DNA of 64,000 bases, from the NCBI RefSeq assembly GCF_003473485.1, contig NC_053048.1:46140255-46204254 (forward strand), written 5' to 3'. The position numbers were made by a program, and so were the translations under genes. How positions within the stretch are numbered: the stretch's first letter is position 1; every line of letters starts with the position of its first letter. The notes under the pieces were generated by a model, which was given only the letters and a program-made list of their open reading frames with translations, was not told where the DNA came from and made no database searches. The stretch is from Medicago truncatula (taxonomy: Eukaryota; Streptophyta; Magnoliopsida; Fabales; Fabaceae). Of the stretch, positions 33,436 to 64,000 are shown piece by piece.

Positions 33436-36400
33436 ATGGAGGTTGGAGGTAGTTTCAGGATTGGCAGTTCATCAATATGGAGGAACAGTGATGCAGCTGA
33501 GATTTTTTCAAATTCTTTCCACCAAGAAGATGATGAAGAAGCTCTTAAATGGGCTGCAATTCAGAAACTTCCTACTTTTGAACGTTTGAGGAAAGGTTTG
33601 CTCACTTCACTTCAAGGTGGAACCATCGAGATTGATGTTGAGAACCTTGGGATGCAAGAAAAGAAAGATTTGCTCGAAAGACTTGTTAGACTTGCTGAAG
33701 AGGACAATGAAAAGTTTCTGCTCAAACTTAAGGATCGAATAGACAGGTTCGGATTCAAAAAATATTTTGTCCTTGTGATTTTAAAAGAAATGCTTTTGAA
33801 ATACACTGATTTCTTTGCTTCTCCTCCTTTTTTTTGTTCATTGGATGATGTCAGAGTTGGAATTGATCTTCCTACAATAGAAGTTCGATTCGAGCACCTC
33901 AATATTGAAGCAGAAGCTCGTGTAGGAAGCAGATCTTTGCCTACCTTCACTAACTTCATGGTTAATATAGTAGAGGTAAAGTACTAAAATTTGAAAATAG
34001 TACTAACTTGCTATGTGATTTTTTATATTGAAGGGGATTCTAACTAAACATTTTGGTTTTTTTTTTTTTTTTTTTTTTAATTACCTTTGAAGAGAATATT
34101 CAACTCTCTTCTTGTACTTCCAAGTAGAAAACAACATCTAAATATTCTCAAGGATGTTAGCGGAATAATCAAGCCTTCAAGGTATCAATACATTTACTGT
34201 TTTATTCATTGATTTCTCTAGGTACCTTTCAAACAAATATAACTTATTTCAATTTGCTTTTTTTCTTCTTCTTCAGAATGACGTTGCTTTTGGGTCCTCC
34301 GAGTTCTGGAAAAACAACACTCCTATTGGCTTTGGCCGGGAAACTTGATCAGAAATTGAAGGTTAGAACATTAATAAGATAAACCCACCTCTTATCTACG
34401 TTTTCGATTTTATCTCTAGTTTCCAATCTTAGATCTATAGCTAAAATGCTAATATAGTGTGACTTGACTTCATGATCAGTTTTCTGGAAGGGTGACTTAT
34501 AATGGTCATGAGATGAGTGAATTTGTCCCCCAAAGAACTGCTGCATATGTGGATCAAAATGATCTTCACATTGGAGAATTGACTGTTAGAGAAACACTGG
34601 CCTTCTCGGCAAGAGTCCAAGGAGTTGGACCTCAATATGGTTGGTCTACAAGATTTCTTTATGCTTATATTCATTATTGAATACACAAGCTGAAGTATTA
34701 AGGCTTTCTTTCGATAAACAGCTTAATTAATTGCTTATAAAATAAACATTTAATATTGTAAAAAATTAAGCTTAGCATGTAAGTGATTAAATATAAGCTA
34801 TTTTAGTAACAAATTATAGAGTCAAACGGTTTCCATATAAGCTGTTTTCAAAAGCTATCCTGGCGAGCTTATGGAAATAAGCTGAATGCAACTTATGGAC
34901 ATGTCATAAATTGTTTCCATAAACTCTACCAAACAGTCTCACGAGTAATTATTCCAGTAGATAAGTTCAAACAAGCCAGTTCAAACAAGCCCTAAATTAG
35001 AAAGTTTTGACCACGTGTAATATTGTTGACATTCTGCAGACTTGCTAGCAGAATTGTCCAGAAGAGAAAAAGATGCAAATATCAAGCCTGATCCAGATAT
35101 TGATGTGTACATGAAGGTAATATAGAGGTTCTTTTAATACTTAGTGAATCTTAGACTTATTTTCCACTCAAATAGAACTGACTGATAATGAAGTGGCTGT
35201 CATTTTTATTCATAATGCTCACAGGCTGTAGCAACTGAAGGCCAGAAGGCAAATTTGATAACAGATTATGTCCTAAGGGTAAAGTAATTTATACTTTCAT
35301 ATGTAATCTCACCATAACTACATTGTAATATTGTGTTATGAAGTCTCTTGTTTCTTTTTCTATACATTTGTAGGTTTTGGGACTAGAGATATGTGCTGAT
35401 ACTGTTGTGGGAAATGCAATGATAAGAGGTATCTCTGGCGGACAAAAGAAACGCCTTACAACAGGTAAAACAAATCTGATTTAAATCTAACACGCGTTGT
35501 GATTAATTACCTCAATAAACTGATTATTAGGAATCTATAAATGTAGGGGAGATGTTGGTTGGACCAACTAAAGCTTTATTCATGGATGAAATATCTACTG
35601 GTTTGGATAGCTCAACAACTTTTCAAATTGTGAATTCAATGAAGCAATATGTCCACATTCTCAAAGGAACCGCGGTGATCTCACTCCTGCAGCCGCCACC
35701 AGAAACTTACAATCTATTTGACAGCATTATTCTACTCTCTGATAGTCATATTATATACCAAGGTCCTCGGGAACACGTGCTTGAATTTTTCGAATCAATT
35801 GGTTTTAAATGTCCAAATAGGAAAGGAGTGGCGGATTTTTTGCAAGAAGTGAGTTTCATTGCGTCTTCTCTCATTTTTGCATAAACAAAGTTTTATTTAT
35901 TTTTACTATATAGTAGCAATTTAAATTTTTCCATGAAAACTATTATGTTATAGGTGACATCAGTGAAAGACCAAGAGCAATTCTGGGAACACAAAGACCA
36001 ACCTTATAAATTTGTTACAGCTGAAGAGTTTTCTGAAGCATTTCAAACATTTCATGTTGGCAGAAGACTTGGTGATGAACTTGGTACTGAATTTGACAAG
36101 TCTAAGAGCCACCCAGCTGCTTTGACAACAAAGAAATATGGAGTTGGAAAAATTGAACTGTTAAAAGCTTGCTCATCAAGAGAATATTTACTTATGAAGC
36201 GCAATTCATTTGTCTACATCTTCAAGCTTTGCCAAGTAAGTTTGGAAATGAGACATTTTCATTTTTAACATTACGTTCCGAACTAAAGTCCGTTGTATTG
36301 TTTTATTTATTTATACTTTTTATAACAAACTTGCTCATAAAGAGTATCGACTTTGGGAATTGTGTATGCCCTCTATCCCCAAGTATTGCAGGACATTTTT

Positions 36401-39400
36401 GGTGTATGGATCACATTAAATAATACAATGTTAAAATCCATTACTGATGACTTCCTTCTCGTTTTAGCTCGCTGTAATGGCAATGATAACCATGACTGTC
36501 TTCCTCCGAACTGAAATGCGCAAAGATTCAGTGGTGCATGGAGGTATATATGTAGGTGCATTGTTCTTTGGCGTTACTGTGATCATGTTTATTGGAATGG
36601 CTGAACTTTCCATGGTAGTTTCAAGGCTTCCTGTTTTCTACAAGCAAAGGGGGTGCCTTTTTTTCCCTCCATGGGCATATTCTCTTCCTTCATGGATCCT
36701 AAAAATCCCCTTGACTTGTGTGGAAGTGGCTGTTTGGGTATTTCTCACTTACTATGTCATTGGTTTTGATCCATATATTGGAAGGTAAGGGTGATATGAG
36801 TTTATAAGTCCTAAGCGTACTTGTGATTTGTGCCCAGTATGGAAAAACAGTTTAATTAAGCCATTAAAGCATAAGCACTTATGTATAAGCTATTTCAACA
36901 ATAAAAGATTAAATAAATAAAAGTCAAATTGTTTTCAGAAGCTCTTCCAAAGAGTCTCTCGTATGTGTTTATGTCCGTAGATAAACTCTAATAAGCTAAT
37001 ACAATCAAACCTTTGATATATTATTTGTCCCTTATATCACTGTCTATTCTAAACCCAAATAAGCTAATACAATCAAACCTAATGCAGATTTTTCAGACAA
37101 TACCTTATTCTTGTACTAGTACACCAGATGGCTGCTGCATTATTCAGATTCATTGCAGCAGTTGGGAGGGACATGACAGTGGCTCTAACATTTGGATCAT
37201 TTGCAATTGCCATCCTTTTTTCAATGAGTGGTTTTGTTCTATCAAAAGGTACTATAAATACGGATACAAAACAAATAAACAATCACAGTGTTTGTCCCAC
37301 TAAGATTTCTTTCTTTTCTTTGCTTTATGCTCATAGACGGTATAAAAAAATGGTGGATATGGGCATTTTGGATATCACCTTTGATGTATGGACAAAATGC
37401 CATGGTAAATAATGAGTTCCTTGGGAATAAATGGAAACATGTAAGCTTTCTTTTACTATTTCATATGTTCATTTTCTATGAATTCCATATCATATAAATA
37501 ATCTGGTGTACTACCGAGGTCTGGTGCAAGTGCTTGGTGTATTGTGTGTGTGAGTGTTGTAAACTCCGGAGTACCGAATTTGATTCTTACTCATCAAAAA
37601 ATATAAATAGTCTGATGATTTTGATATGTTTTCCTATGAAAGGTTCTTCCTAACTCAACCGAATCACTTGGAGTTGAAGTTTTGAAATCTCGCAGTTTCT
37701 TTACTGAGACATATTGGTACTGGATATGTGTTGGTGCTTTGATTGGATATACATTACTTTTCAACTTTGGATATATCCTTGCCCTCACTTTCTTGAATCG
37801 TGAGTATCTTCACCTTAGATGTATGATAAAACAGATGAGACTACAGTTCGTGTACTGATAATCTTCAAAATTGATCATGTAGCACTTGGGAAGCATCAAG
37901 CTGTTATACCAGATGAATCTCAAAGCAATGAGCAAATTGGTGGTAGCCAGAAAAGAACTAATGCATTGAAATTCATAAAGGATGGTTTTTCTAAGCTCTC
38001 AAATAAAGGTACTTTCATCTCATAACTACCGACAATGTAGTAAGGTCTACTCCCTCCGTCCCAAATTACAATCAAAAAAATCTCAGTTTCTTTGTCCCAA
38101 AATATAAGCAAAAAATACCAACTTTTATGCTATTATTGTGTTGTTTCAAAAAAAAAATCATCTTTTCCAAATTAAAACTAAATGCAAATTGCATTCAAAT
38201 TGTTCTCCTTTCTATTTTCTCCATAATGTGAATTGGTGATTTTTGCTTATAATTGGGACGGAGGGAGTATGTTGGAAATTTCGCCCAATATAAAATCTAA
38301 GGGTGCGTTTGATTTGCTAAACACGAAGTATTGAACAGAACAACATACCACAAACATTGTTGGTATTGAATGATTTTCGGTCTTGTACGGTTTCTTGTTG
38401 TCCAGTGCTTCATTTTTTAGCAGATCAAATCAAATGCACCCTAAGAGTCTAGATGAGTAATTTTTTATTTTCAATTCACATAACACCTTATGGATAAAAT
38501 TGGACCACTTCACAGTGAAAAAAGGAGAAAGTAGAAGAGGAAGCATCTCTCCTAGTAGACAAGAAATAGTTGCTGCAGCAACAAATCATAGTAGGAAAAA
38601 GGGAATGGTTCTTCCTTTTGAACCACATTCTATAACCTTTGATGAAGTTACATATTCTGTAGACATGCCACAGGTAATGTAGAAACCAATTGAATAAAAA
38701 GTTAAATTTCGATACACTGTCAGTGTAAAAAGCAAATCACACTCAATTACATGTGTGACTTTAGGAATAGTTATTGTTAACAATGCAGCTACAAAATAAA
38801 GAAACAATACAAAATAAATAAAGAGAATGGGAACGACAACGGAGACAAGGGTTTCATAGAATAGCATTAACTTGACATTACAAAAGGTTACGAGAGAATA
38901 TACATACATACATATATATATATATATAACCTAATGGGCTGCTAACCTAGTAATATAAAGGTCCAAATACTTAAGCTTAATACTTTATTATCTAACAGTT
39001 ATAATTAATGTTAAATGTTTCTAATGATTTGACGATTATAATTGATTGATAGTATAAAATGTTTTAAACGAATGATGTTTACAAATTGGATCCCAAAATA
39101 AATTGGAAAAAATTATCATATTAAACTTTAAAACCATTGTTGTGAAGTAGATATTATTAAATACTTGGACTGGATTTGCAGGAAATGAGAAACAGAGGTG
39201 TTCTTGAGGATAAGTTAGTTCTTTTGAAGGGTGTAAGTGGAGCTTTCAGACCAGGTGTTCTCACCGCTCTGATGGGCATCACCGGTGCTGGGAAAACAAC
39301 TCTGATGGATGTGCTTTCTGGTAGAAAAACTGGTGGATATATTGGTGGGAACATCAAAATTTCCGGCTTTCCAAAGAAGCAAGAAACCTTTGCAAGAATT

Positions 39401-41719
39401 TCTGGATACTGTGAGCAAACTGATATCCATTCTCCTCATGTTACTGTCTATGAATCTTTGCTCTATTCAGCATGGCTCCGATTGTCCCCTGACATCAATG
39501 CTGAAACCAGAAAGGTTAGTATTTTAATCACTTGAGATTTTACCATTAACTGGAATTATTAAGTTTAAGTTTGAAAATGACTTATGCTTGAAGATGTTCA
39601 TTGAGGAAGTCATGGAACTTGTGGAACTGAAACCACTGCAAAACGCAATAGTAGGACTACCTGGTGTTAGCGGTCTCTCAACGGAGCAGCGCAAAAGGCT
39701 GACTGTTGCAGTTGAGTTGGTTGCTAATCCTTCAATAATATTCATGGATGAGCCAACTTCTGGGCTAGATGCAAGGGCTGCAGCTATTGTTATGAGAACA
39801 GTTAGGAACACAGTAGACACTGGAAGAACAGTTGTTTGTACAATCCACCAGCCTAGCATTGATATATTTGAATCTTTTGATGAGGTGAAAAATAAAAAGT
39901 TGAAAACTCAAGAAATTAAAAACAAATTGTTTGTTCTCTTGCATTACAATATATTAAATTTCTAATATTTTCTCAAAATGAAATGCAGCTTTTACTACTT
40001 AAGCAAGGAGGGCAAGAGATATATGTAGGGCCACTTGGACATAATTCTTCCAATTTAATCAATCACTTTGAGGTAGGTAGAATATATACACACACACACA
40101 CACAATGAAAAGTATGAAATTGATTTCGATTTTATGCTTCAAACTATTATCTTCTTCTTAACATTTCAAACTGTAAGCACTTGTCATGAAGGGAATCCAA
40201 GGTGTTAGCAAGATCAAAGACGGTTATAATCCAGCAACATGGATGTTGGAAGTCACAAATTCATCTAAAGAAGTGGAATTGGGGATTGATTTTGTAGAGT
40301 TGTACAAAAATTCAGAGTTATACAGGTATTTTCACTGGTATACACAATCTAATCAAACTATAGAACCAGAAAATTCAGAGTTATACAGGTATTTTCACTA
40401 CTATAATTGTTTCAGGATAAACAAAGCACTTATCAAGGAATTGGGTAGTCCAGCACCTTGTTCAAAAGATCTTTATTTTCCTACTCAGTACTCGAGATCC
40501 TTTTTTACACAATGTATGGCTTGCTTATGGAAACAACATTGGTCTTATTGGCGCAATCCTGAATATAATGCCATAAGATTTCTGTACTCAACCGCAGTGG
40601 CTGTTTTGCTAGGAAGCATGTTTTGGGACCTTAGCTCCAAAATGTAAAATCAAATTGGAAAACTAGAAATTTTTTACGGCTTCAAACTCTTGAATTTGTA
40701 AAATTTCATTTCATTATTGCAGTGAAAAGGAGCAAGATCTTTTTAATGCCATGGGGTCCATGTATGCTGCTGTTATCCTTATTGGCGTCATGAATGGTAA
40801 TTCAGTGCAGCCGGTGGTTGCTGTTGAAAGAACGGTCTTTTATAGAGAAAGAGCGGCCGGAATGTATTCAGCTTTTCCATATGCTTTTGGGCAGGCAAGT
40901 ATCCATACCAATTTATAAAATATCTTCTGGTACCAAGTTTGATGACTTTAATATCGTAAGAACATAACAAAAAACAGTTAATTAGCTTGCATTGCAGGTT
41001 GTAATAGAGCTCCCATATGTTTTTGTACAAGCTGTGGTCTATGGCATTATAGTGTATGCGATGATTGGTTTTGAGTGGTCTATGGTTAAAGTTTTGTGGT
41101 GCCTATTCTTCTTGTTTTTCACCTTTCTCTACTACACTTACTATGGGATGATGTCAGTGGCCTTGACCCCAAACAATCACATTTCCATTATAGTTTCCTC
41201 AGCATTCTACTCAATATGGAATCTCTTCTCAGGATTCATAGTCCCAAGACCAGTAAGTTTTTACTTCCTCAAATTCTTGGTGCATTTTAATTTCATAGTT
41301 TTTGTTTTTAAGGTTTCAGTTCATTAGTAAGAGTTTGACATTGTAAACTCAGAGGATAGTCAGAGATGGTTGTAAAATAGTAATTAGTGTCATTTTAATT
41401 AATAATAGTCTGATTTTGTAAAAAAAAAAATCTTGGTGCCTTTGGCTAACAGAGTATTCCAGTGTGGTGGAGGTGGTACAGTTGGGCAAATCCAATGGCA
41501 TGGAGTTTGTATGGATTGGCGGCTTCACAATATGGAGATTTAAAAAAAAACATTGAATCCAATGATGGAAGCCAAACCGTGGAAGAATTTTTGAGAAACT
41601 ACTTTGGTTTCAAGCCTGATTTTCTAGGAGTGGTTGCTCTTGTCAATGTTGCATTTCCAATAGCATTTGCTTTGGTGTTTTCCATAGCAATTAAGATGTT
41701 TAATTTCCAAAGGCGTTAA
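33436..41719 (+). CDS. PDR-type full-size ABCG transporter, copy 1, complete, 24 exons
   Basis: Exons: 33436-33746, 33855-33975, 34093-34181, 34277-34361, 34480-34639, 35040-35116, 35225-35278, 35374-35464, 35547-35848, 35954-36235, 36468-36784, 37088-37248, 37337-37440, 37643-37799, 37883-38008, 38516-38673, 39182-39514, 39594-39884, 39989-40072, 40192-40325, 40416-40643, 40723-40894, 40998-41252, 41453-41719. They join in frame (4359 nt, 1452 aa). Order is NBD1-TMD1-NBD2-TMD2, the reverse layout of ABCG/PDR pumps. NBD1 has Walker A GPPSSGKT (180-187), signature ISGGQ (319-323) and Walker B ALFMDE (339-344). NBD2 has GITGAGKT (897-904), LSTEQ (1004-1008) and IIFMDE (1024-1029). The end is IKMFNFQRR. 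These plasma-membrane pumps export terpenoids, phenolics or hormones using ATP; the substrate here is unknown. Start is the ATG at 33436. Oddities: GC donor at 40895, duplicated donor in intron 20, MITEs and a SINE in introns. Confidence 0.95.
37506..37600 (+). mobile_element. SINE-like insert in intron 13 of PDR copy 1 (shared with copy 2)
   Basis: ATATAAATAATCTG (37492-37505) and ATATAAATAGTCTG (37601-37614) flank a 95-bp insert with GGTCTGGTGCAAGTGCTTGG and an A-rich 3' end (CATCAAAAA). Copy 2 has the same insert at about 48806-48900, so it entered before those two copies split. Confidence 0.65.
38050..38267. mobile_element. Stowaway MITE in intron 15 of PDR copy 1
   Basis: Perfect 13-bp termini CTCCCTCCGTCCC, extended imperfectly to 23 bp, and TA on both sides. 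It is 218 bp and non-coding. A gutted version lacking both ends is in copy 2 (about 49350-49490). Confidence 0.92.
38301..38441. mobile_element. Tourist/PIF-type MITE in intron 15 of PDR copy 1
   Basis: Ends GGGTGCGTTTGATTTGCTAA and, inverted, GGGTGCATTTGATTTGATCT; TAA lies on both outer sides. It is 141 bp. The right half only survives in copy 2 (about 49497-49618). Confidence 0.85.
40311..40415 (+). repeat. Duplicated exon-20 end inside intron 20 of PDR copy 1
   Basis: The stretch AATTCAGAGTTATACAGGTA, continuing to TTTTCACT, occurs at the true exon end (about 40310) and again 63 bp later (about 40373). It therefore carries a second identical donor CAG|GTATTT at 40388/40389. Copy 2 lacks the second copy. 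Confidence 0.9.
40895..40997 (+). other. GC-AG intron (intron 22 of PDR copy 1)
   Basis: Exon 22 ends GGGCAG and the intron begins GCAAGT, ending TTGCAG. The frame (FGQ then VVIELPYVF) requires this border. The same GC donor is at 55714 in copy 2. Confidence 0.85.
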
Positions 41720-42320
41720 GAACATTCGGATTTTTCTTTTTGTATAGGAGTTCCATCTAAAGAAGAAAATATCCCACAACCATTATTATATTTTCTTTAT
41801 TACTAATTAAATATTGTATCATAGTTCGAGATTAGATAATCTAAGTGACATGTGATACGGCTTCGATAAAGTTGCATATGTTGTTTATCCTTATGAAATT
41901 AGGATCTTTTCACAAGAGCTTTGTTAGAATGTCTGCCTATTGATCTCGTTGATAACATTTTCCCTTACATTTATACTGCATGTGTGTAGAATTGGATTGT
42001 GTGTGTGAGAGAGAGAGCACACCTAAATGATCACAGAGAAACCTTGGAGTTTGATGTTTGACCCTTAATTCTCGTAATAATGAATGAAGCAATAGAATTT
42101 CTGCATTATAGCATGTTCTAAATTCCTAATCTCTGCTTTAACACTTGACCTTGCAACTATTGTCTAATACTTTTAAACCTTGGTAAAAATCATCAAGTAG
42201 GCCTTATGATCAAATTTTCCAGCAATGACATAGGCACATCAAAGAGAACAAACCAACAACAAAAAACAAATGCAAGAGAAAAAACAAACCAAAAGGTTAG
42301 TATACATTTTGCTCTTGTCA
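41720..42320. other. 3' flank of PDR copy 1, duplicated after copy 2
   Basis: Sequence from the stop codon to about 42300 matches 56528-57124 after copy 2, including GAACATTCGGATTTTTCTTT and the tail AACAAACCAACAACAAAAAA. Similarity ends at TAGTATACA (42303 / 57125), one edge of the duplicated unit. Confidence 0.75.
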
Positions 42321-42321
42321 A

Positions 42322-42620
42322 ACAGTGTTGGAAGCCAAACTGTGGAAGGTTTTCTGAGAAATTACTTTGGTTTCAAGAATGATTTTCTAGGAGTAGTTGC
42401 TCTTGTCAATGTTGCATTTCCAATAGTTTTTGCTTTGTTTTTTCCTATATCAATAAAGATGTTTAGTTTCCAAAGGCGTTAAGAACATTCAATTTTTGTA
42501 TTTTCTTTATTTACCAGTTAATATTGTATCATAGCTCGAGATTGGATAGTCTAAGTGACATTTGATACGGCTGTTATACGATTAAATATGTTATTTGTCC
42601 TTATGAAATTAGTATATTTA
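42322..42620 (+). pseudogene. Relic last exon and 3' UTR of a further PDR gene
   Basis: From 42330 the frame reads [20 protein letters not shown], then [27 protein letters not shown] and TAA at 42480-42482, clearly the C-terminus of the PDR family. The following 130 bp resemble the 3' UTR of the intact copies (CATAGCTCGAGATTGGATAG). The first part of the exon and all other exons are missing. It is a stump left by unequal exchange or deletion. Confidence 0.9.
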
Positions 42621-42802
42621 GTTTGTTAAAAGGATCATGAGCATATTTTTTTTAAACAAGGGCTTTGTTAGCATGTCTGCCTATTGATCTGGAGCTGATA
42701 TATGAGTGTTTAAGAAAGTCTCGTGGATTTTAATATACTTTGCACGATTTTAATGAAGGATTTGAAATCAATTTATAGATTCATAAGATTTCAAAAGACT
42801 TA

Positions 42803-44716: not shown

Positions 44717-47700
44717 ATGATGGGGGGTGGAGGTAGTTCATCAATTTGGAGGAACAGTGATGCTGCTCAGATTTTTTCAAATTCTTTTCACCAAGAAGAT
44801 GATGAAGAAGCTCTTAAATGGGCTGCAATTCAGAAACTTCCTACTTTTGAACGTTTGAGGAAAGGTTTGCTTACTTCACTTCAAGGGGAAGCCACCGAGG
44901 TTGATGTTGAGAAGCTTGGGTTGCAAGTAAGAAAAGATTTGCTTGAAAGACTTGTTAGACTTGCTGAAGAGGACAATGAGAAGTTTCTGCTCAAACTTAA
45001 GGATCGCATGGACAGGTTCAAATTCAATTTTATTTTGTTCCTCAGGGGATGTTAAAAGAGTGCTTTTAAAATACACTAATTTCTTTGCTTATCATTCTTT
45101 TCTTGTTCATTGATGATATCAGAGTTGGAATTGATCTTCCTACCATAGAGGTTCGATTCGAGCATTTGAATATCGAAGCAGAAGCTCATGTAGGAAGCAT
45201 ATCTTTGCCTACCTTCACTAACTTCATGGTTAATATAGTAGAGGTAAAGTACTAAAATTTGAAAATAGTACTAACTTGCTATGTGATTTTTTTTATATTG
45301 AAGGGGATTCTAACTAAACATTTTGGTTTCTGTTTTTTTTACATTTTAATTAACTTTAAAGAGTCTATTGAACTCTCTTCATGTACTTCCAAGTAGAAAG
45401 CAACGTCTAAATATTCTCAAGGATGTTAGTGGAATAATAAAGCCTTCAAGGTATCAATACATTTACTGTTCCATTCATTGATTTCTCTAGGCACCTTTTG
45501 AACAAATATAACTAATTTCAATTTGCTTTTTTTTTTTCCTTCAGAATGACGTTGCTTTTGGGCCCTCCAAGTTCTGGAAAAACGACACTCCTTTTGGCTT
45601 TGGCCGGAAAACTTGATCCAAAATTGAAGGTTAGAACATTAAAACGAAGATGAACACACCTCTCTCTTATCTATGTTTTCTATTTTATCTATAGTTTCCA
45701 ATCTAACTAGATCTATAGCTAAAATACTAATAATGTGTGACTTGACTTCATGATCAGTTTTCTGGAAGGGTGACTTATAATGGTCATGAGATGAGTGAAT
45801 TTGTCCCCCAAAGAACTGCTGCTTATGTGGATCAAAATGATCTTCACATTGGAGAATTGACTGTTAGAGAAACATTGGCCTTCTCGGCAAGAGTCCAAGG
45901 AGTTGGACCTCAATATGGTTGGTCTACAAGATTTCTTTATACTTATATTCATTATTGAATACACAAGCTGAAGTATTAAGGCTTTCTTTCAATAAACAGC
46001 TTAATTAATCGCTTATATAATAAATGTTTAATATTGTAAAAAATAATCTTAGCATGTAATCGATTATGTATAAGCTATTTCAGTAACAAAAGATAGAGTC
46101 AAACTGTTTTCATATAAGCTGTTTTCAAAAGCTATCCTGACGACCTTATGGAAATAAGCTGAAAGCAACTTATGGACATGTCATAAACTGTTTCCATGAA
46201 CTCTACCAAACAGTCTCACAAGTAATTATTCCAGTAGATAAGTTCAAACAAGCCCTAAATTAGAAAGTTTTGACCACGTGTAATATTGTTGACATTCTGC
46301 AGACTTGCTAGCAGAATTGTCCAGAAGAGAAAAAGATGCAAATATCAAGCCTGATCCAGATATTGATGTGTACATGAAAGTAATATAAAATTTCTTTTCA
46401 ACTCAGTGGATCATTTATTTATTTTCCATACAGATATATATTACTGATATTAAAGTGGCTGTCATTATGATTCATAATGCTCACAGGTTGTAGCAATTGA
46501 AGGCCAGAAGGAAAATTTGATAACAGATTATGTCCTAAGGGTAAAGTAATTTATACTTTCATATCTAATCTCACCATAACTACATTTTAATATTATGTTT
46601 TGAAGTCTCTCTTGTTTCTTTGCTATACATTTGTAGGTTTTGGGACTAGAGATATGTGCTGATACTGTTGTGGGAAATGCAATGATAAGAGGTATCTCTG
46701 GCGGACAAAAGAAACGCCTTACAACAGGTAAAACAAATCTGATTTAAATCTAACACGCGTTGTGATTAATTACGTCAATAAACTGATTATTAGGAATCTA
46801 TAGGGGAGATGTTGGTTGGACCAACTAAAGCTTTATTCATGGATGAAATATCTACTGGTTTGGATAGCTCAACAACTTTTCAAATTGTGAATTCAATGAA
46901 GCAATATGTCCACATTCTCAAAGGAACCGCGGTGATCTCACTCCTGCAGCCGCCACCAGAAACTTACAATCTATTCGACGACATTATTCTACTCTCTGAT
47001 AGTCACATTATATACCAAGGTCCTCGGGAACACGTGCTTGAATTTTTCAAATCAATTGGTTTTAAATGTCCAAATAGGAAAGGAGTGGCAGATTTTTTGC
47101 AAGAAGTGAGTGTCATTGTGTCTTCTCTCATTTTTATATAAACAAAGTTTCATTTATCTATAATATACGATAGCAATTTAAATTTTTCTATGGAAATTAT
47201 TATGTTATAGGTGACATCAAGGAAAGATCAAGAGCAGTACTGGCAACACAAAGATCAACAATATAGATTTGTCACAGCTGAAGAGTTTTCTGAGGCATTT
47301 CAATCATTTCATGTTTGCAGAAGACTTGGTGATGAACTTGGTACTGAATTTGACAAGTCTAAGAGCCACCCAGCCGCTTTGACAACAAAGAAATATGGAG
47401 TTGGAAAATTTGAACTGTTAAAAGCTTGTTCATCAAGAGAATATTTACTTATGAAGCGCAATTCATTTGTCTACATCTTCCAGCTTTGCCAAGTAAGTTT
47501 GGAAATGAGAAATTTCCATTTTTAACATTATGTTCTGACCTCAAATCTGTTGTATTGTTTTATTTATTTAAAATATATACAGCAAGCTTGTTCATCAAGA
47601 GAATATCGACTGTGGGAATTGTGTATGCCCTCTATCCCCAAGTCATGCGGGGCATTTTTGGTGTATGGATCACATTAAATATCATATAATACTACTAAAA

Positions 47701-50700
47701 TCCATCATTGATGACTTCCTTCTCATTTTAGCTTGCTGTAATGGCAATGATAGCCATGACCGTCTTCCTCCGAACAGAAATGCGCAAAGATTCTGTGGCG
47801 CATGGAGGTATATATGTAGGTGCGTTGTTCTTTGGCGTCGTTGTGATCATGTTTATTGGAATGGCTGAACTTTCCATGGTAGTTTCAAGGCTTCCTATTT
47901 TCTACAAGCAAAGGGGGTGCCTTTTTTTCCCTCCATGGGCATATTCTCTTCCTTCGTGGATCCTAAAAATCCCCTTGACTTGTTTGGAAGTGGCTGTTTG
48001 GGTATTTCTCACTTACTATGTCATTGGTTTTGATCCATATATTGGAAGGTAAGGGTCATATGTGTTTATAAGTCCCAGTGTACTTGTGATTTGTGCCGAG
48101 TATGGATAAACAGTTTAATTAAGCACTTAAAGCATAAGCGCTAATGTATAAGCTATTTCTACAATAAGATTAAATAAATAGAAGTCAAATTGTTTTCGTA
48201 AGCTCTTCTAAAGAGTCTCTTGTATGTGTTTATGTCAGTAGATAAACTCAAATAAGCCAATACAATCAAGCCCTTGATATATTATTTTTCCCTTGTATCA
48301 TTGTCTATTCTTATCTTACTAAACAAATAATGATATGCATTTGTCTATATACTTCCTAATGCAGATTTTTCAGACAATACCTTATTCTTGTACTAGTACA
48401 CCAGATGGCTGCTGCATTGTTCAGATTCGTTGCAGCAGTTGGGAGGGACATGACAGTGGCTCTAACATTTGTATCATTTGCAATTGCCATCCTTTTTTCA
48501 ATGAGTGGTTTTGTTCTATCAAAAGGTACTATAATAATTACGGATACAAAACAAAAAAAACAATCACAGTGTTTGTCTCACTATGTTCTATACTAAGATT
48601 TCTCTCTTTTCTTTGCTTTATGCTGCTCATAGACAGTATAAAAAAATGGTGGATTTGGGGATTTTGGATATCACCTTTGATGTATGGACAAAATGCCATG
48701 GTAATTAATGAGTTCCTTGGGAATAAATGGAAACATGTAAGTCTTTTACTATTTCATATTCATATGTTCATTTTCTCTGACTTCCTTATCATATAAATCA
48801 TCTTGTGTACCACCAAGGTCTGGTGCAAGTGCTTGGTTCGTTGTGTGTGTGAGTGTTGTAAACTCCAGAGTACCGAATTTAATTCTTACTCATCAAAAAA
48901 TATAAATAGTCTGATGATTTTGATATGATTTCTTATGAAAGGTTCTTCCTAACTCAACCGAATCACTAGGAGTTGAAGTTTTGAAATCTCGCAGTTTCTT
49001 TACTGAGACATATTGGTATTGGATATGTGTTGGTGCTTTGATTGGATATACATTACTTTTCAACTTTGGATATATCCTTGCTCTCACTTTCTTGAATCGT
49101 GAGTATCTTCACCTTAGATGTATGATAAAACAGATGAGACTACAGTTCGTGTACTGATAATCTTCAAAATTGATCATGTAGCACTTGGGAAGCATCAAAC
49201 TGTTATTCCAGATGAATCTCAAAGCAATGAGCAAATTGGTGGTAGCCGGAAAAGAACTAATGTATTGAAATTCATAAAGGAAAGTTTTTCAAAGCTCTCA
49301 AACAAAGGTACTTTCATCTCATAACTACCGACAATGTAGTAAGGTCTACTCTTTGTACCAAAATATAAGCAAAAAAGACCAACTTTTATGCTATTATTGT
49401 GTTGTTTCAAAAAATTAATCTTTTCCAAAGTAAAATTAAATGCAAATTGTATTCAATTTGTTCTCCTTTCTATTTTCTCGATAATGTGAATTTCTTAACA
49501 TGAAGTATTGAACATAACAACACACCACAAACTTTGATGGTATTGAATGATTTTCGGTCTTATACGGTTTTTTGTTGTCCAGTCCTTCATTTTTTAGCAG
49601 ATCAAATCAAACGCACCCTAAGAGTCTAGATGAGTAATTTTTTATTTTCAATTCACATAACATTATGGATAACATTGGAGCTACTTCACAGTGAAAAAAG
49701 GAGAAAGTAGAAGTGGAAGCATCTCTCCTAGTAGACAAGAAATAATTGCTGCGGAAACAAATCATAGTAGGAAAAAGGGAATGGTTCTTCCTTTTGAACC
49801 ACATTCTATAACCTTTGATGAAGTTACATATTCTATAGACATGCCGCAGGTAATCTAGAAACCAATTGAATAAAAAGTTAAATTTCGATACACTGTCAAT
49901 GTAAAAAGCAAATCACACTCAATTACATGAGTAACTTTAGGAATAGTTATTGTTAACAATATAGCTACAAAATAAAGAAAGAATGCAAAATAAATAAAGA
50001 GAGAATGGGAACAACAATGGAGGCAAGGGTTTCATAGAATAGCATTAACTTGACATTACAAAAGGTTACAGGAGAATATATATATAAATCCTAATGGGCT
50101 GCTAACTTAAGAGAATATATATAAAAAACAATGGGCTCTGTTATCATGGTTTTTGGGTGCCAAGCCATTAATTGGACTTGAACCTTTTGACCGTTGATAT
50201 CTCTCTTTTTTCTTGGGAAGGGCAAAATTGAGAAAAAACCCTTAGATTCTAAGTTCGGGGGTCGTTTTCGCTACGGGAAGGTGTTAGGCACCCGGAGCGA
50301 TTATGGTATTCCATAAGAACCGTTCTCCTAAGCTTATTTCTACGCTTTATTTTTATTGCCTACTTTATTGAAAGAAGTTTTATTTGAGTGAAGAATGGAG
50401 GTGAGAAGAAGTAGAATTTTATTTTATTTCGGCTTGGAGGGGTTAAAGTCCCTTGCCTACGTACCGTTTTACGGGATCAAAACCGGCGTAGTTCTTGCTA
50501 AAAAGACTTGTTGTTTTTTTGTTTTAATTGTTTGATTTTAAATTTTGAAAATGATTTTGAAGAAGGGGATTGAGAGGCTTCATGAGCATTAGAGTATGAA
50601 AAAGTGAGGGTTTGTTTAGTGATTTTGCAAAAAGGTCTAAATGATTAGACTTATTTGAGAATTTTATTAAGAAAATAAAAGGTGAAAAGTTGTTGGAGTT

Positions 50701-53700
50701 TTGACTCCATTTTTATGAAAAATATTTGAAGCGAGTTTGTTTGCATATTTTTTGGAAAAAAGTTGAATTTTCTCTAAGTGTTTAAACCTAAGCATTCATC
50801 TAACCGTGCAATCCTAGGCATACATCTACACACGCAATCCTAGGCATACATCTAGGGTGAGTGTGTGCGTGCCGGTGCGCCATAGTGTCCATAGTCCATA
50901 TTACAAGAATTGCCTAAATACATTCTATGGCCTCTTTGCCAAGCTACAAACCAATGATAACAAATTACATCACCGAATGAATTAAAACTTGCAAAAATAA
51001 AGGCTAAGCTAAAAAAAGTGGTGGAGATAGTGAAATGCTATGAAATGTATGGCACATGAAATGAAATGGTTAGTAATCATAAAGCACAAAATAGTAGGAA
51101 ATAAACAACAAGAAATTGCATAAGAATGGCAAAAAGGAAGTAATAAAGTGGTAAAAACCTAAGAAAATTTGATATGATACCTAAATGTGCTTGTGACCCA
51201 TAATTCTCACATTATGGCAATTTTGAAAGAGATTTTGTTTCAAATCATGATGTGAAATTAATAGAGACACATGCAAGCAAAGTATCACACCAAATTCATA
51301 GAGGAATTTGACACTTTATTCCTTAAGACAAACACTTGTTGCTTGCAAAACAAGAAATTTACAAAATCATATCCAAAAACAGCAAAAAAGGGCACATGAC
51401 CAGAGGCATATTCATCACAAGATTGGGTATCATTTATTCATGTCACATATCAAAGTGTCAAGAATAAAAACATAACCAAAATAATACCAAAAATGTAAAA
51501 ACACATGGAAATTAATTCATGCCATTTTACCATTTTTTTTACATGCAAAACACCATAGAAATACCAAAAATATATCAAGAAACAACTAGGATTTTTAGGA
51601 ATTTTTGTAAAAAAATGTGAGCAAGCAACAGGTTCAGATAGCAAGGAAAACAGTGCAAATAGCAAAAAAAACAAAAACGTAGAAAGAAACTTAAGCCCAA
51701 CCCAAAACCCACTGGGCCTGGATCATCCAAAGGCCTCAGGGGCGTTAGATTGATCCAGACCTAGATCTGACGGTTCAAAGCAAGCAGCGCATGGTAACAC
51801 AGATCAAGCACACGGAAGCAGAGCATCACAGCCATTCAAACGTAAAAACCCTAGATCCTACGGTCCAGGATGAAAACAAAATGAACCGGACCGGTTCAGG
51901 CGTCTATATAAGCATATGGACACCGGTCCAGTTCATTTCTTCCATCTCCCTCTCTCTCTAAACTTCTCTCTTCTCTCGCCTCTCTCTAAAAACTCACCGC
52001 CGGTGAGGATGAAGCTACGGCGGAGACCTTGAAGGTCCGCCGGAAACTTCATCTTCTCCGGCGAGCCTATGAACTCTCCGGTGACCTAACTTTCCAGAAT
52101 TCAAAGATTTTCACATCAAACGATTCGTCCTTTAACCCTAAACACGAATCCAGCAAAGATTTTCTCAAACACAGCTTGAAACGACGTAGATCTGAAAATC
52201 TTCGTACGGTTTTGAAACTAATTTTTTGATCTTTTTTGAAAGAAAACGTTTATACCTTTAAGGATCTACATCGTTTCGTCGTTCATCACTTCTCTGGTGC
52301 TTGTTCTTGCTTTCAAAACTTGGATCCTTATGGATCTAGGTTTTGGTGTTTACGGTTATGACTTTATCTTTGTGATTCTGGAAAATTTAGATCTGTTTGT
52401 TCGTTTTCATGCAGGTTTAACCGTGATTATAACTTTTTAAAGAGAAAAATGAGTTTTACCTGAGTTTTGGTTGAAACTTTTGATAGAGAAAATCTTCGGA
52501 AAACTTGAATGTTCTTTGACGAATCTTTGATTTTCTCTGGACCGAAAATAAATCGGTTTACCGGTTCTGTTTCTTCATCTTCTCCGATTCCTTCTCTACT
52601 TCTCTCTCTGTGATTACGTGCTTGAGCTTGCTTCTTGCTTCTTAGATCCGCGTGAGAGAATTCCTGTGATCAGTGCTTGAGCTTGCTTCAATGTGAGCTC
52701 GCACTTAGAATTGCAGGAGAATCTTCAATCCAGTGATGAAGATTCACACGAATCTCTGAGGATTGATGTGAAATTCGTTGATTTCTGATGAACTTTTGAG
52801 TTTCTGGAAACGGTTAGGGTTTTGTGTTCTTGGTGTTCTTGAGGAATTCTGGGGAAATTTTCTGTTTTGATTCAATTGCTGAGAGAGAAAAATTGGATTT
52901 GTGTTTATGAGTTGGCGTGTGATTAATGGATCTCCGAATTATGTGGCACTGTGAACAGTATTTATAGCTGATGTGTGAGTGATTGGACCATTAGAAAGCT
53001 GACATGTGGCATTGGACTGAAAAAGGGGCGCTGCCCTGTAATTTGACTTGAAGGACCTGTTTGCAAATTTGAAAAATATATGGACTGGACTGAAAAATGA
53101 AAGTAAGGACTGAAATGAAATTAAAAACTGTTTGGACAAAAAATGCAATTTTGGGACCTCAATTGAGGGACCAAAATGCAATTAAAAATAAGATTGAATA
53201 AAAACGTAATTTGACCAAACGTAAAGCGAAACAAAAAATAAAATTGACAAAACGGACTAAAACGAACCAATGGCTTAAATGAGGTACTTCAAAGTAACCT
53301 CTCTATGCCGAAAATTTTGTGTGAAATGACCAAAATGCCCCTAGGGCTAAAAATGACCTAAACAGATTCAAATTGACTTGACACTGACTCAGATGCAAGT
53401 TTGAAATGAATTTAACAAGGTTTACTGATGAAATGTTAAAAAAAAAAAATCAATCTGAAAAGACTCAGAGACAGTCACAAGGATGAAAATGGGTCCCACT
53501 GCAGGAAATGACCAAAATACCCTTCTGTACGACTTTTTGCAAATTTTGAAATAAACTGTAGAAAAATCAGTGTAATGATTGAGAGACACTTTTGAATGAC
53601 TTACAAGACAAGTAAAGACATTTCGAAAGGTTTTATGCAAGAAAAACATAGGTAAAATGGTGATTGAAAATACTGCGAGGCAGAGACAATTTGAACTGTG

Positions 53701-56527
53701 CAGTTGAAATTTGATAATTGACAAAGTTTGAAATGAAATTGGGCCCAGTATTTTTAGGTCCAAAAACAGGGTATAACAGGCTCCTAACTTAGTAATATAA
53801 AAGTCCAAAGACTTAAGCTCAATACTTTATTATCTAACAGTTATAATTAAAGTTAAATATTTCTAATGGTCTGACAGTTATAATTGATTGATAGTAAAAA
53901 ATGTTTCAAACGAATTATGTTTAGGAATTGAATCCCAAAATAAATTGGAAAAAATTATCATATTGAACTTTCAAACCACTGTTGTGAAGTAGATATTATC
54001 AAATACTTGGACTGGATTTGCAGGAAATGAAAAACCGAGGCGTTCTTGAAGATAAGTTAGTTCTTTTAAAGGGTGTAAGTGGAGCTTTCAGACCAGGTGT
54101 TCTCACGGCTCTGATGGGCATCACTGGTGCTGGAAAAACAACTCTAATGGATGTGCTTTCTGGTAGAAAAACCGGTGGATATATTGGTGGGAACATCACA
54201 ATTTCCGGCTATCCAAAAAAGCAAGAAACCTTTGCAAGAATTTCTGGATACTGTGAGCAAACTGATATCCATTCTCCTTATGTTACTGTCTATGAATCTT
54301 TGCTCTATCCAACATGGCTCCGGTTGTCCCCAGACATCAATGCTGAAACCAGAAAGGTTAGTACTTTAATCACTTGAGATTTTACCATTCATTGGAATTA
54401 TTATGTTTAAGTTTGAAAATGACTTATACTTGAAGATGTTCGTTGAGGAAGTCATGGAACTTGTGGAACTGAAACCACTGCGAAATGCATTAGTAGGACT
54501 TCCTGGTGTTTGCGGTCTCTCAATGGAGCAGCGCAAAAGGCTGACTGTTGCAGTTGAGTTGGTTGCTAATCCTTCAATAATATTCATGGATGAACCAACT
54601 TCTGGGCTAGATGCAAGGGCTGCAGCAGTTGTGATGAGAACAGTTAGAAACACAGTAGATACAGGAAGAACAGTTGTTTGTACAATCCACCAGCCTAGCA
54701 TTGATATATTTGAATCTTTTGATGAGGTGAAAAATAAAAAGTTGAAAACTCAAAGAAATTAAAAAAAAAATTGTCTGTTCTCTTCCATTACAATATATCA
54801 AGTTTCTAATTTTTTCTCATAATAAAATGCAGCTTTTGCTACTTAAGCAAGGAGGGCAAGAGATATATGTGGGCCCACTTGGACATAATTCTTCCAATTT
54901 AATCAATCACTTTGAGGTAGGTAGAATATATATGTATATAGACAATGATAAGTATGGAATTGATTTCAATTTTATGCTTCAAATTATTATCTTCTTGTTA
55001 ACATTTCAAAATGTACACACTTGTCTTGAAGGGAATCCAAGGTGTTAGAAAGATCAAAGACGGTTATAATCCAGCAACATGGATGTTGGAAGTCACAACT
55101 TCATCTAAAGAAAGGGAATTGGGGATTGATTTTGCAGAGTTGTACAAAAATTCAGAGTTATACAGGTATTTTCACTGGTACCCACAATCTAATCAAACTA
55201 TAGAAATGGAAAATAATCTACTATAATTGTTTCAGGATAAACAAAGCACTTGTCAAAGAATTGAGTGCTCCAGCACCTTGTTCAAAAGATCTCTATTTTC
55301 CTTCACAGTACTCGAGATCCTTTTTTACACAATGTATGGCTTGCTTATGGAAACAACATTGGTCTTATTGGCGCAATCCTGAATATAATGCCATAAGATT
55401 TCTGTACTCAACCGCCGTGGCTGTTTTGCTTGGAAGCATGTTTTGGGACCTTGGCTCCAAAATGTAAATTCAAATTGGAAAACTAGAATTTTTTACGGCT
55501 TCAAACTCTTGAATTTGTAAAATTTCATTTCATTATTGCAGTGAAAAGGAGCAAGATCTTTTTAATGCCATGGGGTCCATGTATTCTGCTGTTATCCTAA
55601 TTGGCGTCATGAATTGTAATTCAGTGCAGCCGGTGGTTGTTGTTGAAAGAACGGTCTTTTATAGAGAAAGAGCAGCCGGAATGTATTCTACTTTTCCATA
55701 TGCGTTTGGGCAGGCAAGTATCCTTACCAATTTATAAAATATATCTTCTGGTACCAAGATTAATGACTTTAATATCGTAAGAACATAACAAAAAACAGTT
55801 AATTATCTTGCATTGCAGGTTTTGATAGAGCTCCCATATGTTTTTGTACAAGCTGTGGTCTATGGCATTATAGTGTATGCGATGATTGGTTTGGAGTGGT
55901 CTGTGGTTAAATTTTCGTATTTCCTATTCTTCATGTATTTCACCTTCCTCTACTACACCTACTATGGGATGATGTCGGTGGCCTTGACCCCAAACAATCA
56001 CATATCCATTATAGTTTCCTCAGCATTCTACTCAATATGGAATCTCTTCTCAGGATTCATAGTCCCAAGACCAGTAAGTTTTTACTTCCTCAAATTCTTA
56101 GTGCATTTTAATTTCATATTTTTTATTTTTAAGGTTTCAGTTCAATAGTAAGAGTCTGACTTTGTAACCTCAAAGGATAGTCAGAGATGGTTGTAAAATA
56201 GTAATTAGTGTCATTTTAATTAATAATAGTCTGATTTTTCTTGGTGAGTTTGGTTAACAGAGTATTCCAGTGTGGTGGAGGTGGTACAGTTGGGCAAATC
56301 CAATAGCGTGGAGTTTGTATGGATTGGTGGCTTCACAATATGGAGATGTAAAACAAAACATTGAAACCAGTGATGGAAGACAAACAGTGGAAGAATTTTT
56401 GAGAAATTACTTTGGTTTCAAGCATGATTTTCTAGGAGTGGTTGCTCTTGTCAATGTTGCATTTCCAATAGCATTTGCTTTGGTGTTTGCCATAGCAATC
56501 AAGATGTTTAATTTCCAAAGGCGTTAA
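44717..56527 (+). CDS. PDR-type full-size ABCG transporter, copy 2, complete, 24 exons
   Basis: Exons: 44717-45015, 45123-45243, 45362-45450, 45545-45629, 45758-45917, 46303-46379, 46487-46540, 46637-46727, 46804-47105, 47211-47492, 47732-48048, 48365-48525, 48633-48736, 48942-49098, 49182-49307, 49692-49849, 54024-54356, 54436-54726, 54833-54916, 55032-55165, 55236-55463, 55542-55713, 55819-56073, 56261-56527. They join in frame to 4347 nt, 1448 aa; every exon but the first has the same length as in copy 1. Exon 1 is four codons shorter ([11 protein letters not shown]). The domain plan and Walker motifs equal copy 1, but the NBD2 signature region reads [12 protein letters not shown] instead of [12 protein letters not shown], and VCRRLG replaces VGRRLG in the linker. 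Intron 16 is 4.17 kb because of a solo LTR (50139-53778). The GC donor at 55714 is shared with copy 1. No stop or frameshift is seen, so it is likely functional if the long intron is spliced. Confidence 0.94.
47584..47606 (+). repeat. Exon-10 fragment echoed in intron 10 of PDR copy 2
   Basis: AAGCTTGTTCATCAAGAGAA plus TAT (23 nt) is identical to exon 10 at 47422-47444. Copy 1 has a more decayed version near 36330-36350. Intron 10 of copy 3 has no such block. Confidence 0.75.
49340..49620. mobile_element. Remnants of the intron-15 Stowaway and Tourist MITEs in PDR copy 2
   Basis: Interior Stowaway sequence (ACCAACTTTTATGCTATTAT) survives, but its left terminus and, by a second deletion of about 90 bp, its right terminus together with the Tourist left terminus are gone. 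The Tourist right end (AATCAAACGCACCC) remains. Confidence 0.8.
50139..53778 (+). mobile_element. Solo LTR, 3640 bp, in intron 16 of PDR copy 2
   Basis: Begins TGTTATCATGG and ends GGTATAACA (short inverted TGTTAT/ATAACA), with the 5-bp duplication GGCTC on both sides (50134-50138 and 53779-53783). Copy 1 keeps the empty site (GGGCTGCTAAC at about 38937). No gag, protease, integrase or polymerase frame occurs within, and no internal LTR repeat was noticed, so a solo LTR left by LTR-LTR recombination fits best. A TATA box (TCTATATAAG, 51903-51912) followed by a CT-rich leader (CCATCTCCCTCTCTCTCT) marks a likely U3/R border on the plus strand. The length suggests a Ty3/gypsy Ogre/Tat-like family; that is inference. 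Confidence 0.85.
51903..51980 (+). promoter_or_regulatory. TATA box and pyrimidine-rich start region of the solo LTR
   Basis: TCTATATAAG is followed 30-40 bp later by a CT-repeat tract (TCTCTCTCTAAACTTCTCTC), the usual appearance of a plant retrotransposon Pol II start. It points in the same direction as the PDR gene that contains it. Confidence 0.55.
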
Positions 56528-62615: not shown

Positions 62616-62754
62616 GTATGAGTGATATGTGTTTATAAGTCCTAAGTGTACTTGTGAATTGTGCCAAGTTTGGATAAACATTTTAATTAAGCACTTATAG
62701 CATAAGCACTTATGTATAAGCTATTTTCATAATAAAAGTCAAATTGTTTTCATG

Positions 62755-64000
62755 TAAGTTATCTTTGAGATCTTATAAAGTTTCCATTGGTTTTTATTGA
62801 GTGCCTCCATTTCCAAGTTCATGGCTTGTTTCCATTTTCTGTCGGTCAATGCCTCAGATAAAGAGGTAGGTATTGTGGTAGTGTTTAGACTTGTGAGGAA
62901 GGCTTTATGGGTGGTTGATAACTGTTCAAAGCATAGGAAGTTGGATAGAGGATAGAGTGTCTTGCTGGTACAGGTTCTGATATCTTTCATTAGGGCAATT
63001 GGAAGATATAAATCTTTATAGTGTAGTGGTGGTCTTTCTTTGGATTTTGGTTTCTTATGCTTTATTAGGCTGGATTTTGGTTTCTTATGCTTTATTAGGC
63101 TGGATTCTGGTTCCTTATGTAACAATGAGTCACTAGAAAATTTAGAAATTGAATCACTAGAATTTATAGGGTCAAGTGAAGTTACATCGTGTAATGTCGG
63201 ATCGCAGAGTGACCGGCTTGCTGCCCCGTGATTGACTCACTGGACAAAGAGTCGATCCTCCACTAATTATGGTATCTTGGATATGATTAGATTCAGGAAT
63301 GAACTTTTTTCTAGTATATACCAAATTCTTTTCATATCTTACATCAACTTCAACATTTCCATCTTTTTCATAATCAACTTTGGTCTCAACATTGTTACCT
63401 CTAGTTTCAGCCTCAATTTTGGCCTGAAAGTAAGGTCGGGAAGTAGAAGAAACTCATTTCCTTACTTATAGTCTCCCCCAGAAGATGAGTTTGAACAAAG
63501 TAACTTTCTTGTTCATGGAAGGTGACATCTCAACAGACAAAATACTTATGAGATGGTGGATGATAACATATGTAACCTTTTTGAGTGGAGGAATACCCTA
63601 TAAAGACACACTTTAAGGCTCTAGGATCAAGTTTGCTTCTACCATCACTTTGGATATAGACAAACGACGTACACCCAAATATTTTATGTGTGAAATTATT
63701 AGAGGTGGGCATATAAGGATATAATGACGATAAAACTTCCATGAGTTTTGGAGTCAAGGGCATTAGAAAGTAAACGACTTATGAGATAAGATGCAGTTAA
63801 AACCGTCTCCCCCCAAAATTTCTTGGGAACCTTACTTTGGAATGACATTACTCGAGTTTGATCTCACAAATGGCCATTTTTCCTCCGAGTAACCTCATTT
63901 TGTTAAGGGGGGTGGTACAGGAAGACTCGTGAATAATAATACCCTCTTTTGACAAAAAGAATAACTTGTGATTCAAGTAATCTTTGGTATTATCAAACCT
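62755..64000 (-). mobile_element. Truncated Ty1/copia retrotransposon (integrase to start of reverse transcriptase), frameshifted
   Basis: Read on the minus strand from the right edge: integrase core fragments with frame changes (the RFDN and IIHESS region, about 64000-63880), then the integrase C-terminal part at 63763-63530 (KIFGCTSFVYIQSDGRSKLD, CVFIGYSSTQKGY). A low-complexity linker follows, then the start of the polymerase region at about 62950-62770 (SLSEALTDRKWKQAMNLEME). This order, integrase before polymerase, is that of copia elements. The polymerase ends abruptly in intron 11 of PDR copy 3, so the element is 3'-truncated there. A 30-bp repeat (GGATTTTGGTTTCTTATGC...) occurs twice and a half at 63041-63120. 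Several frameshifts make it inactive. Confidence 0.88.
63041..63120. repeat. 30-bp tandem repeat inside the copia fragment
   Basis: Units at 63041-63070 and 63071-63100 are identical and a partial third follows to 63120. On the minus strand they encode a basic ten-residue repeat (IKHKKPKSSL) in the linker between integrase and polymerase. Confidence 0.9.

Follow-up and report, generated by a model that had tools for sequence, protein, structure and literature searches.

In the alternative donor events described in plants, two donors stand upstream of one acceptor, and the size distribution of introns has its peak near 90 nt in four plants, Arabidopsis and rice included; introns shorter than 70 nt were reported to be more likely to be retained, although the authors did not show the supporting data (passages of PMC2277414). 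Exitrons lie within coding exons, are stop-free when retained and have a GC content above that of other introns (passages of PMC4484396). Intron gain by AGGT duplication, for which ATP2A1 and a potato RdRp are described examples, involves duplication of an AGGT-containing segment that provides an extra GT and AG (passages of PMC4974935). Scars of theta-mediated end joining (TMEJ) in Arabidopsis combine small deletions with insertions templated by the flanks, with a mean microhomology of 3 bp (passages of PMC10923293). Here, we compared these systems with intron 20 of a PDR transporter gene of Medicago truncatula, in which a segment carrying the 5' splice site of exon 20 recurs inside the intron. 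The gene lies in a stretch of 64,000 nt, which is called the window below.

The host gene, PDR copy 1, was modelled on the forward strand from ATG to stop codon (33436-41719) with 24 exons encoding 1452 aa and no internal stops. Domain matches in the encoded protein comprise two ABC_tran stretches, two ABC2_membrane stretches and PDR_assoc at residues 716-779; with two NBDs, two TMDs and PDR_assoc, the predicted product is a plant PDR or full-size ABCG transporter. Exon 20 (40192-40325) is followed by intron 20 (40326-40415), which is 90 nt long, in phase 2 and stop-free in the exon frame. The intron begins with donor 1 (CAG/GTATTT, GT at 40326-40327), a 5' splice site common to copy 2, and ends with the acceptor AG at 40414-40415, both of which were also evaluated by splice-site scoring. 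Its insertion point corresponds to residue 1146, between the matches for NBD2 (ABC_tran, 880-1032) and TMD2 (ABC2_membrane, 1177-1391), all domain coordinates being those of the best stretch per family. A search of the sequences of solved structures returned 7 distinct sequences, comprising three fungal multidrug efflux transporters, two of them labelled CDR1, and four plant ABCG25 sequences. The first of the three fungal structures, 7p03, is one that we take to be Pdr5. All three fungal PDR chains align without gaps and with similar letters across the insertion site (NSELYR/INKAL), and the ABCG25 chains align only beyond it.

Two further PDR copies in the window were modelled by mapping the exons of copy 1. 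The mapped model of copy 2 contains a single stop, at codon 1 of mapped exon 1, which is explained by a mapping start upstream of copy 2's own ATG; apart from this stop, copy 2 was taken as intact. For copy 3, exons 1-11 map, and exons 12-24 were not found by mapping from copy 1. The similarity of copy 3 to copy 1 stops about 130 nt past exon 11 (at 62744), with over 1.2 kb of the window still to follow (62616-64000); either intron 11 carries a large insertion or the copy is truncated. Intron 16 measures 4174 nt in copy 2 and 508 nt in copy 1, with an insertion of about 3.65 kb at approximately 50120-53773. This insertion region of copy 2 is touched by three ORFs of at least 100 aa, and the only mostly internal one encodes 134 aa and lies at the right edge. 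Intron 22 starts with GC in both copies (40895-40997 in copy 1, CAG/GCAAGT; 55714-55818 in copy 2) and is a GC-AG intron. About 600 nt past the stop codon of copy 1, the last exon and 3' end recur in part at 42320-42631; this partial duplicate matches copy 2 at 264 of 296 positions versus 256 of 296 for copy 1, and its open frame ends in FQRR. Besides the repeat in intron 20, a second exon-to-intron micro-repeat occurs in copy 2, where 23 nt of exon 10 are found exactly in intron 10 (47422-47444 and 47584-47606). Its counterpart in copy 1 matches at 18 of 21 nt (36165-36185 and 36327-36347), at a C/T site the intron 10 piece carries the base of the exon in its own copy, and this micro-repeat was not found in copy 3 at the same threshold.

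The repeat in intron 20 consists of the last 19 nt of exon 20 and the first 11 nt of the intron, donor 1 included (40307-40336), and its second copy lies at 40370-40399. The two copies are identical at 30 of 30 positions and at 34 of 36 over the extended unit, with a spacing of 63 nt, and the surroundings of the donors at 40326 and 40389 are thereby identical from -19 to +11. After low-complexity filtering, the window contains 7 exact direct repeats of at least 20 nt at spacings of 20-200 nt, the one in intron 20 being the longest, versus none in each of 3 simulated order-2 Markov copies of the window. These data indicate that the repeat is beyond chance. Local repeats of the same sort are found at 6 other places in the window, and the repeat in intron 20 is real and ordinary in kind. 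An earlier note on this DNA had described the end of exon 20 with its donor as duplicated inside a 90-nt intron without an in-frame stop, with GTs at 40326 and 40389 that are 63 nt apart, and had placed any extra residues between NBD2 and TMD2; the exact repeat, the gene model and the position of residue 1146 all agree with this description. Its term "tandem" is loose, as 33 nt (40337-40369) separate the exact 30-nt cores.

Comparison with copy 2 points to the origin of the second repeat copy. Intron 20 of copy 2, located on the forward strand at 55166-55235 by exon mapping, is 70 nt long, lacks the repeat and contains an in-frame TAA, as the earlier note had also stated. The two introns read GAAAAT-AAT-CTACTATAATTG in copy 2 and GAAAAT-TCAGAGTTATACAGGTATTTTCA-CTACTATAATTG in copy 1, and their remainder is alignable. 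Thus, a 23-nt piece, TCAGAGTTATACAGGTATTTTCA (40375-40397), stands where copy 2 has AAT, a net gain of 20 nt; this split and its boundaries were set by eye, and automatic alignment puts the gaps elsewhere. With the by-eye boundaries, the junctions match the source at AAAAT on the left (5 nt) and CT on the right (2 nt). The 63-nt distance between the donors is composed of 49 nt of older intron and 14 nt of the new piece. This distance follows from the site at which the 23-nt piece entered an intron of 70 nt, which is sufficient to explain why it is a multiple of three.

With its small deletion, flank-copied insertion and short junction microhomology, the piece resembles the templated insertions of TMEJ, also termed fillers or delins (passages of PMC10923293). 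The exchange of 3 nt for 23 nt, with junctions AAAAT and CT, would place it among insertions of this type, and the junction matches suggest a repair pathway of the polymerase theta type. Unlike the TMEJ cases that follow induced breaks, the event in intron 20 is deduced from two paralogues, and its polarity rests on one of them. The derived state would be that of copy 1, since a gain of the piece there is a simpler reading than its loss in copy 2; loss is the other possibility, as the similarity of copy 3, the candidate outgroup, ends before intron 20. Copies 1 and 2 are 95.6% identical over exons 2-24 and 92.2% identical over 22 of the 23 introns, intron 16 being omitted because of the large insertion in copy 2. 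For a repeat as old as the split between these copies, the chance of zero differences in 30 nt is 0.18 with the exon and intron divergences and 0.09 with the intron rate, so perfect identity leaves it unproved that the insertion is younger than the split. In the proposed course of events, a small repair or replication error in copy 1 would have inserted a 23-nt copy of the exon 20/intron 20 junction into intron 20, 63 nt downstream of its source and in exchange for 3 nt, so that the intron grew from about 70 to 90 nt. The duplication also resembles AGGT-duplication intron gain in ATP2A1 and potato RdRp, in that an AGGT-containing segment was duplicated and an extra GT and AG arose. In contrast to those cases (passages of PMC4974935), it affected an intron that was already there, lacks a head-to-tail arrangement and yields no new intron; intron gain of this kind would not apply here, since intron 20 is present in copy 2 without the repeat.

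Donor 2, the duplicated GT at 40389-40390, lies 27 nt from the acceptor at 40415, a distance on which the earlier note was silent. Of the 56 introns in the models of copies 1 and 2 and of the visible part of copy 3, the shortest is intron 20 of copy 2 with 70 nt, the next has 76 nt, and none of copy 1 is below 79 nt. Donors 1 and 2 have equal scores (6.39, the 27th percentile of 52 donors, in small models whose training set was 52 introns from these three copies), and donor 2 therefore has no advantage in strength. With 27 nt versus a minimum of 70 nt, the two donors would not form a tandem alternative 5' splice site, in which both could be spliced with one acceptor. Within 27 nt, donor, branch site and acceptor would not fit at their normal spacing. 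To our knowledge, an intron of this length is far below what plants splice, and Goodall and Filipowicz reportedly put the plant minimum at about 70 nt in 1990; a 27-nt intron is implausible in a plant, though logically possible. In adenovirus E1A pre-mRNA, spliceosomes no longer assembled when donor and branch site were 35 nt apart (work cited in passages of PMC6692369). Introns of about 25 bp occur in some ciliates (PMC5014332), and human introns of about 30 bp, even 10 bp, have been reported, although the citing paper doubts that the spliceosome removes them (passages of PMC6310983). A cut at donor 2 leaves a 27-nt intron, which makes a form with 21 extra residues very unlikely. For an intron of usual length, donor 2 would need a more distant acceptor; joining it to the acceptor of the next exon, at 40722, would skip exon 21 (228 nt) and remove 76 residues, including the start of TMD2. 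Of the three in-frame products proposed in the earlier note, the arithmetic, the frames and, on paper, the retention form with 30 extra residues stand, but the +21 form would need the 27-nt intron, and the new splice-isoform opportunity suggested there is largely removed by the distance between donor 2 and the acceptor.

Very probably, therefore, a neutral templated micro-insertion left a dead decoy donor, and intron 20 is still removed as 40326-40415. The copied donor would be unable to pair with an acceptor 27 nt away, the cut would stay at 40326 and 40415, and normal splicing of the intron would be unchanged. Most likely, the insertion is neutral or of slight benefit, the latter because lengths around 90 nt are the most frequent among plant introns and 70 nt comes close to the lower limit. 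The branch motif has the consensus YTNAY, and the second repeat copy contains a matching branch-site-like TTCAC (40394-40398), whose A (40397) is separated by 72 nt from donor 1 and by 18 nt from the downstream acceptor. Intron 20 of copy 2 has full YTNAY matches only at 9 and 27 nt from its donor and lacks the geometry of TTCAC in copy 1. If anything, the inserted piece may ease normal splicing of intron 20.

An alternative, which appears unlikely, is that intron 20 undergoes regulated or leaky in-frame retention, with donor 2 binding U1 snRNP over the region of branch site and acceptor, hindering splicing and giving rise to a nonsense-decay-proof transporter with 30 additional residues. Retention with 30 added residues is possible on paper, the predicted intron being stop-free and a multiple of three in length. 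Donor 2, located 27 nt from the acceptor, scores the same as donor 1; the scores of donor 1 and of the acceptor are only at the 27th and 35th percentiles of the gene copies' own sites, and among alternative splicing events in plants, retention is the most frequent (passages of PMC2277414). However, the GC content of intron 20 is intron-like (0.289, compared with 0.212-0.337 for the 23 introns and 0.337-0.447 for the 24 exons of copy 1), its 90 nt are a usual intron length, and 30 added residues would interrupt the NSELYR/INKAL stretch that is gapless in all three fungal PDR chains. Moreover, a stop-free intron of 3n length is not special, because intron 1 of copy 1 (33747-33854, 108 nt) is another, with neither the duplication nor a decoy. 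Retention of intron 1 would add 36 residues in frame; neither copy 2 nor copy 3 has a stop-free 3n intron at this place. Such introns account for 2 of 23 in copy 1 (introns 1 and 20), 0 of 23 in copy 2 and 0 of 10 in copy 3; under a first-order Markov null built from pooled copy 1 introns, 0.41 are expected per 23, and one or more occur in 34% and two or more in 6% of cases. Like exitrons, intron 20 is stop-free, a multiple of three and situated between coding exons. In contrast to exitrons as described in passages of PMC4484396, its GC content is intron-like, its position is common to copy 2 and it is not inside a coding exon; the predicted open frame upon retention is thus shared with exitrons, but the higher GC content and the location within a coding exon are not. 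RNA folding of intron 20 in both copies, without a shuffled control, gave nothing usable. That a putative U1 decoy lowers intron 20 splicing and so produces a stable PDR isoform with 30 more residues (or 9, via the copied AG) from copy 1 only is an outcome we consider improbable.

It is very unlikely that the duplicated AG at 40387-40388, which the earlier note did not mention, serves as an alternative acceptor. As such a candidate, it would define a 63-nt intron and add 27 nt, or 9 in-frame residues without a stop; it scores 5.84 versus 6.42 for the true acceptor, and a branch-like CTAAT lies 36 nt upstream. However, 63 nt is below the 70-nt minimum among the 56 introns, and no pyrimidine tract precedes this AG as judged by eye. 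The CTAAT lies 27 nt from donor 1, compared with the 35 nt that abolished assembly on E1A (cited in passages of PMC6692369), but this objection hits the CTAAT of copy 2 equally.

A false local duplication introduced into intron 20 by the assembly is highly improbable, as the extended copies differ at 2 of 6 sites outside the exact core and the junctions are those of a partial replacement, not of a clean head-to-tail duplication. Least credible of all, with hardly any chance of being right, is the proposal of the earlier note that the donors at 40326 and 40389 are both joined to the acceptor at 40415 to give normal and +21 forms: the donor surroundings are identical and the frame of the longer form is open, and the arrangement of two donors with equal sequence ahead of a single acceptor recalls plant alternative donor events, but unlike in those events as described in passages of PMC2277414, the second donor is just 27 nt before the acceptor, which would require a 27-nt intron.

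Among the matches listed for literature on PDR splicing variants, no title or abstract start mentions intron 20. With the decoy donor as the preferred reading, this PDR gene provides a small example of splice signals being brought into introns by local DNA copying, and it warns that a pair of equal in-frame donors does not amount to two isoforms if the leftover intron is too short. If retention or use of the new acceptor were found in RNA, the locus would show an isoform that arose cleanly from a single event, and the paralogue would serve as a built-in control. Were the copied donor indeed a U1 decoy, a DNA repair scar would be the one-step origin of a new isoform.
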